A DNA stretch of 64,000 nt from Desulfococcus multivorans. Lineage in GTDB: Bacteria; Desulfobacterota; Desulfobacteria; Desulfobacterales; Desulfococcaceae. Below the pieces are notes generated by a model. That model was not told the DNA's origin. It did not search any database and worked only from the letters and a program-made list of their open reading frames with translations. This document shows, one piece after another, positions 18,973 to 23,183 of the stretch (positions are counted from its first letter, which is position 1; each line of letters starts with the position of its first letter). The position numbers and the translations under genes were made by a program. The DNA lies in NCBI RefSeq assembly GCF_001854245.1, contig NZ_CP015381.1, positions 3,507,001-3,571,000 of the forward strand. Reading direction: 5' to 3'.

Positions 18973-19071
18973 CAACTGTCGACTTTCATGATGGCGACCG
19001 GAAAGCGGTTCCGGGAGGATACGGCCCGCGCCCCTTTCCTCCCGGAACCGGCCTGTGAAAGTCGACAGTTG
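18973..19071. repeat. Dispersed hairpin element, copy A (complete form)
   Basis: A nested palindrome in the mpl-hypC gap. The outer arms are 18973-18988 and 19056-19071 (16 bp, perfect, caactgtcgactttca). The inner arms are 19007-19019 and 19037-19049 (13 bp, perfect, ggttccgggagga). The loop is 19020-19036. A 16-base core, ccgggaggatacggcc, at 19011-19026 is shared with the copies at 32315 and 59056. This is the only copy in the window with both inner arms. It does not resemble a rho-independent terminator because no T-run follows immediately. Confidence 0.85.
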
Positions 19072-19193: not shown

Positions 19194-19448
19194 ATGTGCC
19201 TTGCCATCCCCGCGAGGGTTATCGGGATCGACGGCGACACCGCCGTCGTCGACGTGGACGGAATTCGGCGGGAGTGCAGCCTGGTGTTGGCGGAAGACGC
19301 CGCGGTCGGCGCCTACGTGATCGTCCACGCCGGGTTCGCCCTCCACGTCATCGATGAGATCGTCGCCATGGAATCCCTCCGGCTGCTCCGGGAGGCGGGG
19401 GCCGCAATGGACGGGGAAGCTTTCGACGCTTCCGAACCGTCGAGTTGA
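19194..19448 (+). CDS. hypC: HypC/HupF-family hydrogenase maturation chaperone
   Basis: An 84-residue HypC. It starts with the invariant MCLAIPARV, whose Cys2 holds the Fe(CO)(CN)2 unit with HypD, and continues with the usual small beta barrel (DGIRRECSL, VGAYVIVHAGFALHVID). It works in making the NiFe-hydrogenase cofactor. hypF lies two genes downstream, but hypA, B, D and E are not in the window. The nfeD gene begins 15 bases later. Confidence 0.93.
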   Translation: MCLAIPARVIGIDGDTAVVDVDGIRRECSLVLAEDAAVGAYVIVHAGFALHVIDEIVAMESLRLLREAGAAMDGEAFDASEPSS

Positions 19449-19463: not shown

Positions 19464-19922
19464 ATGGAGATGCTGAAAGACCCCGTGACCCTCTGGTTCC
19501 TCATCGGACTCTTCTGCGTCATCGTCGAATTTTTCGCGCCGGGGGTGATCATCGTCTTCTTCGGCGTCGGCGCCTGGGTGGTCGCCCTCCTCTGCCTCGG
19601 GGCGGATGTAGGCGCGCCGCTTCAGATCGCCGTCTTTGTCGTTGTCTCCATCGGCTCTCTCGTGCTGCTCCGCCGGAGATTCACCCCCCGCCCGGACAGC
19701 GGCCCGGACCTGACGGACGATTTCATCGGCCGGACCGCCGTCGTACTGGAGCCCCTTCGCCGGGGCCGGCCCGGCCGGGTGGTCTTCAAGGGCGCCGCAT
19801 GGAAGGCTGAAACCGCGTCCGAGGAGCTGCTGGAAAAAGGCCGCTACGTCTCGATCGTCGGTCGGGACAGCATCCTGCTGTTTGTCGAACCCCTTCACGA
19901 GGAGGAGTACCGAAAGATATGA
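19464..19922 (+). CDS. NfeD-family membrane protein
   Basis: A 152-residue protein with two or three N-terminal membrane segments (WFLIGLFCVIVEFFAPG, then IIVFFGVGAWVVALLCL and IAVFVVVSIGSLVLL) and a soluble C-terminal OB-fold domain (FIGRTAVVLEPL to SIVGRDSILLFVEPL). NfeD proteins pair with stomatin-like SPFH proteins, and the next gene is one, overlapping by four bases. The pair probably forms a membrane microdomain or protein-quality complex. Confidence 0.92.
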   Translation: MEMLKDPVTLWFLIGLFCVIVEFFAPGVIIVFFGVGAWVVALLCLGADVGAPLQIAVFVVVSIGSLVLLRRRFTPRPDSGPDLTDDFIGRTAVVLEPLRRGRPGRVVFKGAAWKAETASEELLEKGRYVSIVGRDSILLFVEPLHEEEYRKI

Positions 19923-20914
19923 GCCTCTACACCCTGATCACCGCCGGCATCGCGGTTTTCGTCATCGTCGTCTTCTTCAAGACCATCCGCATCGTCCCCC
20001 AGAGAACGGCCTATATCGTCGAAAGACTGGGCAAATACAGCCGGACCCTCGAGGCCGGATTCCACATCCTGGTGCCGTTTATCGACCGCATCGCCTACCG
20101 CCGTTCCCTCAAGGAGGAGGCGGTGGACGTGCCCCAACAGGTCTGCATCACCAAGGACAACGTCTCCATCGGGGTGGACGGCATCCTCTACCTCCAGGTG
20201 GTGGACGCCCAGAAATCCTGTTACGGCATCGAGGATTACAAGTACGCCGTCATGCAGATGGCCCAGACCACCATGCGGAGCGTCTTCGGCACCTTCGATC
20301 TCGACGGCACCTTCGAGGCCAGGGAGGTCATCAACATGCGGGTGGTGGAATCGGTGGACGAGGCCAGCGACGCCTGGGGCGTCAAGGTGACACGCTATGA
20401 AATCAAGGATATCGAGCCGCCCCAGAGCATCATCGAGGCGATGGAGAAGCAGATGAAGGCCGAGCGGGACAAGCGGGCCGAGATCGCCGAATCCGAAGGA
20501 AAACGACAGGCGGAAATCAACCGCGCCGAGGGGCGCCGCCAGGCCATGATCGCGGAGTCCGAGGGGGAAAAGCAGAAGCGGATCAACGAGGCCGAGGGTC
20601 GGGCACAGGAGATCGAGCGGGTGGCCGAAGCCACGGCCCGGGGCATCGGGAAGATCGCCCAGGCCATCCAGCAGGCAGGGGGGCTTCAGGCGGTCAACCT
20701 CCGCATCGCCGAACAGTACATCCAGGAATTCGGAAATCTGGCCCGAACCAACAACACCATGATCATCCCCGCCACCCTTTCGGATGTCGGCGGCTTCATT
20801 GCCGCGGCCAAGGGAATCCTGGACGTCTTCGACACACCGGCTGCGGAGCCCGGGGCCGCAACAGCGACCCCGCCGGCGTCGCCGGTGACCCGCTGGGATC
20901 TTCCCAAACCCTGA
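19919..20914 (+). CDS. Stomatin-like SPFH/Band 7 protein (QmcA-type)
   Basis: A 331-residue protein. One N-terminal membrane segment (LITAGIAVFVIVVFF) is followed by the SPFH domain (VPQRTAYIVERLGKYSRTLEAGFH, DGILYLQVVD) and a long charged coiled coil from about residue 180 to 240, rich in EAEGRRQA/ESEGEKQ-type repeats. It oligomerises into rings at the membrane. The overlap with nfeD shows translational coupling. hypF follows after three bases, so hypC-nfeD-SPFH-hypF read as one unit. Confidence 0.93.
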   Translation: MSLYTLITAGIAVFVIVVFFKTIRIVPQRTAYIVERLGKYSRTLEAGFHILVPFIDRIAYRRSLKEEAVDVPQQVCITKDNVSIGVDGILYLQVVDAQKSCYGIEDYKYAVMQMAQTTMRSVFGTFDLDGTFEAREVINMRVVESVDEASDAWGVKVTRYEIKDIEPPQSIIEAMEKQMKAERDKRAEIAESEGKRQAEINRAEGRRQAMIAESEGEKQKRINEAEGRAQEIERVAEATARGIGKIAQAIQQAGGLQAVNLRIAEQYIQEFGNLARTNNTMIIPATLSDVGGFIAAAKGILDVFDTPAAEPGAATATPPASPVTRWDLPKP

Positions 20915-20917
20915 TCC

Positions 20918-22414
20918 ATGGTATCCAGAACCCTCTACATCAGCGGCGTCGTCCAGGGGGTCGGGTTTCGTCCTTTCGTCTATCGGCTGGCCCGCCGACA
21001 CGGCCTGAAGGGAGAGGTGGCCAACGCGTCGGCGGGGGTCCGCATCCGTCTTGAGGGAACGGTCGACGCCGTCACGGCTTTCTCCCGGGAGATCACGGCG
21101 TCGCTGCCCCCCCCGGCCGTCATTACCGAAGTCCGGGCCGTGGACACGGCGCCCATCGCCGTCGACAACGACGCAGCGCATCGGGATCTGTCAGGCATCG
21201 CCGACGGATTTCTCATTCATGACCGGGACATCTGCCAGAGAAGCGACGATGCCGTTGTCCGGCATATCGACGGCCGCAGCCGCTTTATCCGCCGTTCACG
21301 GGGATATGCCCCCGCGCCCATCTTTCTGCACCGATCCCTGCCGCCGATTCTGGCCTGCGGCGCCGAATTGAAGAACGCGGTCTGCCTCACCCGGAAACGA
21401 TGCGCCTATTTGAGCCCGCACATCGGGGACGTGAGAAACCTCGAGACCTACCGGTTCCTGGACGCCGTCATCCGGCACCTCGAACACATCCTCGCCATCG
21501 CCCCCGAGATCATCGCCCACGACGCGCATCCCGACTACCTCAGTACCCGGTATGCCCGGATGCGATCTTCCGGAACGAAGATCCCCGTCCAGCACCATCA
21601 CGCCCACGTCGCGGCGGCCATGGCGGAAAACGGACTGGAAGGCCCCGTCATCGGTCTCGCCTTCGACGGCACGGGTTTCGGCACCGACGGGGCCGTATGG
21701 GGCGGAGAGGTCTTGACGGCCGACTACCGATCGTTTGAGCGGGCCGCGCATCTGGCCTACACCCCCATGCCCGGGGGTGATGCCGCCGTTCGGGAGCCGT
21801 GGCGAATGGCCGTGGCCTATCTCCACGGGGCTTTCGGTGATGCCCTCCGGGAACTGGACCTTCCCATGCTCAGACGCCTCGACGCGGACCGGATCGATGC
21901 CGTTCTCGCCATGGTCAGGGGAGGATTCCAGGCCCCGCTCACCTCCAGCCTGGGGCGACTGTTCGACGGTGTCGCCGCTCTTCTCGATATCCGGTATGAC
22001 GTCACCTTCGAGGGACAGGCGGCCATGGCCCTCGAAATGTCGGCCGATCCCTCGGAGACCGGCTGCTACCCCTGCGAACGCCCGGCTCAAAACAGCCGGG
22101 AAATCCCGCTCTTTCCCATCATCGAGGGCGTGGTCCGGGATCGTCTCTCAGGGCTTTGCGTTCCGGTCATCAGCCGAAAATTCCACAACACCCTTATCCG
22201 CCAATTCACGACGCTGTGCACCGATATTCGCTGCAACACCGGGCTTGACAGGGTCGTCCTGAGCGGCGGCGCCTTCCAGAACGTCATTCTGCTGAAGGGC
22301 TTGATCCGGGCTTTGACCGGAGCGGGATTCTCGGTCTTCAGTCACGCCCGCGTCCCCACCCATGACGGCGGGATCTCCCTGGGCCAGGCCATGGTGGCCG
22401 CCGCGACCGTCTGA
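20918..22414 (+). CDS. hypF: HypF with internal deletion of zinc-finger and YrdC regions
   Basis: 498 residues, whereas HypF is normally about 750. The acylphosphatase domain is intact (VVQGVGFRPFVYRLARRHG, residues 10-28) to about residue 76. The sequence then passes directly into the very end of the YrdC-like domain (GIADGFLIHDRDI, FIRRSRGYAPAPI), followed by the whole Kae1-like carbamoyltransferase domain (HHHAHVAAAMAENG, VLSGGAFQN). The four-Cys zinc fingers and most of the YrdC-like domain, which forms carbamoyl-adenylate, are absent, yet the frame stays open. HypF normally makes the thiocarbamate on HypE for hydrogenase cyanide ligands; this form should not do so alone. Confidence 0.88.
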   Translation: MVSRTLYISGVVQGVGFRPFVYRLARRHGLKGEVANASAGVRIRLEGTVDAVTAFSREITASLPPPAVITEVRAVDTAPIAVDNDAAHRDLSGIADGFLIHDRDICQRSDDAVVRHIDGRSRFIRRSRGYAPAPIFLHRSLPPILACGAELKNAVCLTRKRCAYLSPHIGDVRNLETYRFLDAVIRHLEHILAIAPEIIAHDAHPDYLSTRYARMRSSGTKIPVQHHHAHVAAAMAENGLEGPVIGLAFDGTGFGTDGAVWGGEVLTADYRSFERAAHLAYTPMPGGDAAVREPWRMAVAYLHGAFGDALRELDLPMLRRLDADRIDAVLAMVRGGFQAPLTSSLGRLFDGVAALLDIRYDVTFEGQAAMALEMSADPSETGCYPCERPAQNSREIPLFPIIEGVVRDRLSGLCVPVISRKFHNTLIRQFTTLCTDIRCNTGLDRVVLSGGAFQNVILLKGLIRALTGAGFSVFSHARVPTHDGGISLGQAMVAAATV

Positions 22415-22454: not shown

Positions 22455-23183
22455 ATGATTGAGTTCAAAAAGGTCAACAAATGGTTCGGACGGCACCACG
22501 TGCTGAAGGACATCGATTTTCATGTGAAAGCCGGGGAAACGGCGGTCATCTGCGGGCCCAGCAGATCCGGAAAGAGCACCCTCATCCGGTGCATCAACCA
22601 GTTGGAACGGATCAAGTCGGGTGAAATCTTCGTGGACGACCTGCCGGTCCACGACAAGGCCACCAACATCACAAGGCTCAGGGCCGAGATCGGCTTCGTC
22701 TCTCAGCAGTTCAACCTCTATCCCCATATGACGGTCATGGAGAACATCACCATCGCCCCCATCAAGGTCAAGAACGTTCCCAGGAAAACGGCCGAAGCCA
22801 TCGCCCTGGACCTGCTGGAAAAGGTCGGCATCCATGACAGGGCGGGCGCCTATCCGGCGCAGTTATCCGGCGGACAGCGACAGCGCGTGGCCATCGCCCG
22901 GGGGTTGGCCATGCAGCCCAAAATCATGCTCTTTGACGAACCGACGTCGGCCCTGGACCCCGAGATGATCAACGAGGTTCTCGACGTTATGCGAAAGCTG
23001 GCTGCAGAGGGAATGACCATGGCCGTCGTGACCCACGAAATGGGGTTTGCCCGGGAGGTGGCGAGCAAGGTGGTGTTCATGGATGACGGCAGAATCATCG
23101 AAACCGGAACCCCCACGGCGTTTTTCACCGCACCGGAGGACGAGCGGACCCGCTCGTTTCTCGGCAAGATTCTCAAGCACTAG
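22455..23183 (+). CDS. Polar amino-acid-type ABC transporter ATPase (orphan)
   Basis: A 242-residue single ATPase of the GlnQ/HisP class: Walker [11 protein letters not shown]-loop [14 protein letters not shown], signature LSGGQRQRV, Walker [15 protein letters not shown] and H-loop VTHEMGFA. The family couples to amino-acid permeases and a periplasmic binding protein, but neither lies on either side. Its permeases must be elsewhere, or it is a remnant. It begins 40 bases after hypF and overlaps the convergent radical SAM gene by four bases. Confidence 0.9.

Follow-up and report, generated by a model that had tools for sequence, protein, structure and literature searches.

HypF of known type carries out its whole reaction in one protein: carbamoyl phosphate is hydrolysed, the carbamate is adenylated, and carbamoyl-AMP is passed to HypE (PMC12134894). 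In HypF structures a tunnel shields the labile carbamate until adenylation (review PMC12134894). A truncated form is known from Cupriavidus necator, whose HypF1 retains one of the three domains, is inactive anaerobically in E. coli and probably depends on an external supply of carbamoyl adenylate (PMC9100943). HypF1 failed to replace E. coli HypF, although the synthesis of HypF1 was unproven in that work (PMC5350229). For Desulfococcus multivorans DSM 2059, a chromosome published as circular, it was reported that the strain uses no H2 and that its genome is devoid of periplasmic hydrogenases (PMC5109826), and a 2025 paper states that the D. multivorans genome contains no hydrogenase genes at all (PMC11887813).

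We analysed a stretch of 64,000 nucleotides of this genome (hereafter the window), which contains a shortened hypF. D. multivorans is a strict anaerobe that reduces sulfate. We consider it probable that a real and recent internal deletion abolished carbamoyl-AMP synthesis in this gene and left the Hox hydrogenase of the organism without its Fe(CN)2CO unit.

Domain content of the shortened HypF

The hypF frame starts with ATG and runs uninterrupted to its end, giving 498 codons; the positions of its parts are collected in Table 1. Pfam searches found Acylphosphatase (PF00708) at residues 6-76 with 65.9 bits, and full-length matches of HypF_C (PF17788) at residues 142-237 and of HypF_C_2 (PF22521) at 246-490. 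From the 178 positions of the Sua5_yciO_yrdC profile, only 110-178 were matched, with 19.6 bits against a cut-off of 25.1, and zf-HYPF (PF07503) gave no match in the 498-aa protein. The NCBIfam hypF model (TIGR00143) scored 420.7 bits against a cut-off of 466.1, so that the curated equivalog level was not reached because a block is missing; the Kae1 stretch of this match pairs residues 77-494 with profile positions 324-740.

Table 1. Positions of hypF, its parts and its upstream neighbours in the window, and of the Hox operon elsewhere in the genome
Feature	Position	Strand	Remark
hypC, 84 aa, N-terminal MC kept	19194..19448	+	
nfeD-like gene	19464..19922	+	member of the conserved hypC-nfeD-stomatin-hypF order
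stomatin/band-7 gene	19919..20914	+	directly upstream of hypF, gap of 3 bases
hypF, internally deleted, 498 aa	20918..22414	+	sole hypF in the genome
acylphosphatase domain, residues 1-74, intact	20918..21139	+	conserved positions and high model confidence
deletion junction, codons ~75-79	21140..21155	+	alignment and Pfam; ~255 residues gone
YrdC-like C-terminal remnant, residues ~79-127	21152..21298	+	Pfam, low model confidence
Kae1-like carbamoyltransferase domain, residues ~140-490	21335..22387	+	Pfam, alignment, motifs, model
HoxEFUYH-type [NiFe]-hydrogenase operon and maturation protease	G000:C1 ~104.5-110.2 kb (L134:6495-12236)		

Alignment with 108 full-length HypFs revealed that a single block is absent between residues 75 and 76 (nt ~21142). 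The median length of the block is 255 residues, and it measures 254-281 residues against order-level relatives. The placement of the junction holds to within a few codons in either direction, since the nearest full-length sequences found are only ~59% identical. The loss takes in the two zinc fingers and, from YrdC, the catalytic two thirds on the N-terminal side (profile positions 1 to ~109), including the YrdC blocks KGlGGfh, LRerKrReeKP, RPIvll, LPYtPlH, and mTSgN. The missing block has 65 positions at which more than 95% of the homologues agree, which supports the loss of function. Since the YrdC blocks and the zinc fingers are gone, the 498-aa polypeptide should not, by the known mechanism, make carbamoyl-AMP by itself.

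These results agree with the original prediction, which had placed an in-frame jump near codon 76-82 (about 21143-21163), with 250-290 residues lost and the zinc fingers and most of the YrdC-like domain missing; alignment and Pfam together put the junction at codon ~75-79 (~21142-21155). It had also held that the rest, including the Kae1-like domain, is intact and open, that hypC is kept nearby, and that a normal HypF reaction is impossible unless supplied in trans. The first two statements were confirmed by the full-length Pfam matches, the conserved positions and the finding of hypC, and the last is supported by the lost YrdC blocks read against the known mechanism.

What remains of the protein shows no decay, which speaks against a dead gene. 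The Kae1-like domain retains the motifs HHHAH, DGTGFGTDG, SGGAFQN, and DGG; all 32 of its positions with a conservation of at least 99% among HypFs are intact, as are 52 of 53 at the level of at least 95%. In the acylphosphatase domain all 16 positions conserved at the latter level are kept. Within the YrdC remnant a sole conserved position is altered, the Ser of the DDS motif being replaced by Ala (S112A). In the predicted structure the acylphosphatase and Kae1-like domains are well ordered, whereas residues 71-130 between them have pLDDT blocks of 55-72, and the top structural matches of the model are HypF structures (3vth, 3tsp, and 4g9i among them). The model thus predicts a poorly ordered stretch where YrdC belongs, which is consistent with the loss of function.

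Sole copy, assembly and relatives

The DSM 2059 genome consists of one closed contig of 4,455,399 bp. A whole-genome search with the 498-aa protein returned the protein itself and one small acylphosphatase-like match. The same genome contains no copy of PF17788 besides this hypF and no match to the PF07503 zinc finger anywhere. The PF01300 family is represented by two complete stand-alone YrdC proteins and by the hypF remnant, and the scored family of both stand-alone proteins is L-threonylcarbamoyladenylate synthase. Stand-alone YrdC proteins also occur in 19 sampled relatives, normally two each, and there are two even in four relatives that lack HypF (G006, G010, G016, and G019). Since the same pair is found in relatives, some of them without HypF, no dedicated free YrdC substitutes for the missing domain, and an extra stand-alone YrdC dedicated to HypF was rejected, the count of two being that of the sampled relatives. 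The original prediction had left room for a second hypF or a free YrdC-like protein elsewhere; the searches recovered no full-length hypF from the closed genome, and the free YrdC proteins proved to be the ordinary pair with no extra member. The lack of a second hypF, of a zinc-finger piece and of an additional YrdC argues for the dead-gene reading.

It is improbable that the deletion is an assembly or cloning artefact, in which the true gene would be full-length and about 765 bp would have been lost in sequencing. The DSM 2059 genome was sequenced by the Sanger method at 15x, using two plasmid libraries along with a fosmid library that served to confirm the assembly, and the published error rate is below 1 in 100,000 (PMC5109826); because of this depth and the fosmid confirmation, a collapse is unlikely. 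The junction keeps the frame, no long repeat able to cause a collapse lies near it, and the genome-wide zinc-finger search gave no trace of the missing part. An observation that favours an artefact comes from the nearest genome, of the same genus (G001), where the assembly is interrupted at just this part of hypF. One G001 contig starts within hypF, at residue 350, and another stops within the stomatin gene, at residue 255 (contig ends: L136, L226), so that the contig gap falls exactly over the part deleted in D. multivorans.

No comparable deletion was found in the HypFs readable across the junction among order-level relatives with a complete locus, nor across 80 loci of other genomes; in both sets the architecture was full-length or interrupted where a contig stops. 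Of 241 genomes sampled at class level, 171 had the Kae1-like HypF family, and there was no comparable deletion among the matches listed. Chance can be set aside here, since no other HypF readable across the region has the deletion. The short HypF frames inspected as possible recurrences were rejected as contig ends (G216, G098, G176, G147, and G063) or frameshifts (G127 and G220). This singularity also favours a loss of function in D. multivorans.

The frameshifts that break the hypF frames of G127 (L193, G127:C1:3222500-3229000) and G220 (L199, G220:C1:6256500-6261500) occur in nearly complete genomes, and these frames are either real pseudogenes or long-read errors. Another genome, G005, has a second copy with a frameshift on a 4.8-kb contig (L141, G005:C3) in addition to its full-length hypF.

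Neighbouring genes, hydrogenases and the fate of the pathway

The order hypC-nfeD-stomatin-hypF is kept, complete or in part, in other family members (G002, G003, and G005), and hynD lies directly upstream of hypC in G003, G004, and G005. In the window mpl and a 99-nt palindrome occupy the place of hynD, and no remnant of hynA or hynD was found within the window. A single deletion that removed hynABD beside hypC was rejected as an explanation, as the adjacency is already broken in G001, where hynA-hynD lie on another contig than hypC. The palindrome (window 18973-19071, ~99 nt, just upstream of hypC) forms a very stable hairpin (z = -8) and belongs to a dispersed, REP- or MITE-like family with about 65 matches in the genome, spread over about 60 places besides this one. 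On contig C204 of G001 (L226:1627-7845), a cluster of TPR, DnaJ-like, GrpE-like, and DnaK-like genes lies between mpl and hypC, which is missing at the corresponding place in the window. Downstream of hypF, an ABC-transporter ATPase (window 22455-23183) is 89% identical to its G001 counterpart. Its Walker A reads GPSRSGKST (Gly to Arg) against GPSGSGKST in G001, and its Q-loop FVSQQF against FVFQQF; this ATPase may be inactive, or the changes may be a sequencing error.

A complete HoxEFUYH-type operon is encoded elsewhere in the genome (Table 1). HoxE and HoxU each score above their own equivalog cut-off, and the operon also contains a HoxF-like protein of the NuoF family and a small subunit. 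The HoxH-like large subunit has the motifs RICGIC and DPCLSC and a C-terminal extension, and a maturation protease gene follows it. Two sigma-54 regulator genes flank the operon. Intact-looking HypA and HypB are present in the genome. HypD and HypE are above their cut-offs, with one deviation each in 91 and 108 invariant columns, respectively, and HypE ends with PRIC at its C terminus. Judged from sequence, HypA-E and the Hox operon with its protease thus look intact, which is new for this genome, and the statement that hydrogenase genes are absent (PMC11887813) is not borne out, as the Hox operon sequence contradicts it. Since HypA-E and Hox are apparently intact, the hypF defect would be consequential and not the leftover of a wholly lost pathway.

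Periplasmic hydrogenase is absent from the genome. The hynA-hynD hydrogenase is kept in most relatives that carry hypF, including G001 of the same genus. The lack of H2 use and of periplasmic hydrogenases (PMC5109826), together with the retention of hynA-hynD in the genus mate, fits a dead HypF. The missing periplasmic hydrogenase already explains the non-use of H2, which is therefore no test of HypF.

We propose that an internal deletion recently took about 255 codons out of the single hypF and kept the frame, in a lineage that additionally lost the periplasmic hydrogenase kept by its relatives. The shortened HypF would still release carbamate from carbamoyl phosphate yet could not adenylate it, and ATP would not be bound in a YrdC site. 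HypE would stay uncarbamoylated, cyanide would not reach HypCD, and assembly of the Fe(CN)2CO unit of HoxH would fail. HypA-E, HoxEFUYH, and the protease would be produced but lead to an inactive apo-hydrogenase. The remaining frame would be undamaged because the deletion is recent. If the pathway were long dead, the intact HypD, HypE, and Hox operon would be odd.

The age of the deletion bears on this proposal. The identity between the HypFs of D. multivorans (G000) and G001, over the 149 residues that they share, is not below the expectation from HypD and HypE. Relaxed selection was rejected, since the conserved positions show no excess of changes and this 149-residue fragment no excess divergence against HypD and HypE. 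A frame of 498 codons with neither stop nor frameshift means either that the deletion is young or that what is left of the gene is still under selection. The data fit both alike, and therefore a minor but appreciable probability is kept for a shortened HypF that works, in which Kae1 carbamoylates HypE using carbamoyl-adenylate from a TsaC/Sua5-like or other source and Hox is matured. The intact Kae1 residues and the intact remaining pathway are in line with such a function, and C. necator HypF1, of 394 aa with a Kae1-like domain only, gives a precedent. It was suggested that a truncated HypF of this kind needs an outside source of carbamoyl adenylate and may become functional when oxygen is higher (PMC9100943).

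Several results make a supply in trans unlikely all the same. The two free YrdC proteins do not differ in kind from the pair carried by relatives, HypF-less genomes included, and in the YrdC tail a conserved Ser is replaced by Ala. C. necator additionally has a full-length HypF2. The strictly anaerobic life of D. multivorans also counts against it. In E. coli grown anaerobically or by fermentation HypF1 showed no activity (PMC9100943, PMC5350229), and the inactivity of the YrdC-less HypF1 as a replacement of E. coli HypF (PMC5350229) in turn favours a dead HypF in D. multivorans. The tunnel that shields carbamate in HypF (PMC12134894) argues against easy supply in trans. The specific form of this idea, that a strict anaerobe matures Hox with a sole acylphosphatase-Kae1 HypF to which a housekeeping TsaC/Sua5- or YciO-type protein delivers carbamoyl-adenylate, seems slightly less probable still. 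If true, such delivery would break the rule that carbamate passes through one continuous HypF tunnel.

A new role outside hydrogenase maturation, in which the acylphosphatase-Kae1 protein would use a different carbamoyl or acyl substrate, is very improbable. The acylphosphatase and Kae1 sites are indeed intact in the absence of YrdC, but the hypC neighbour and the hypC-nfeD-stomatin-hypF order are retained, the genome encodes all of HypA-E as well as a [NiFe] hydrogenase, and such an architecture was seen in no relative examined.

Comparison with known HypF proteins

If the gene is dead, as we favour, the lack of [NiFe]-hydrogenase activity expected of D. multivorans would have a molecular cause in addition to the absent periplasmic enzyme, and the maturation pathway would have been caught just as its loss begins, with one gene broken and the others intact. 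If the gene works, it would be a natural test of whether a fused YrdC is needed in cyanide-ligand synthesis, the question raised by C. necator HypF1. Either way, a HoxEFUYH hydrogenase is encoded, which corrects the 2025 paper (PMC11887813).

With canonical HypF (TIGR00143; 3vth, 3tsp, 4g9i) the protein shares the acylphosphatase and Kae1-like domains, the motifs and the gene neighbourhood, and its identity to the nearest full-length relatives reaches 59% over residues 79-495. It differs from canonical HypF in lacking both zinc fingers and the catalytic YrdC part. C. necator HypF1 (pHG1, WP_011153939.1, 394 aa) likewise has a Kae1-like domain without a functional YrdC (PMC9100943, PMC5350229). 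HypF1 starts at the Kae1-like domain and thus has no acylphosphatase domain, whereas the D. multivorans protein has one. HypF1 is also more diverged, with 7 of 51 conserved Kae1 positions changed, and it is accompanied by the full-length HypF2, whereas D. multivorans has the shortened gene alone. TsaC/Sua5 and TsaD, in which YrdC-fold and Kae1-fold activities reside on two proteins, offer an analogy for working in trans, but they differ in using threonylcarbamoyl-AMP, in the Kae1 family involved, and in transferring to tRNA. The D. multivorans HypF is a variant of a known truncation and not a new kind of enzyme.
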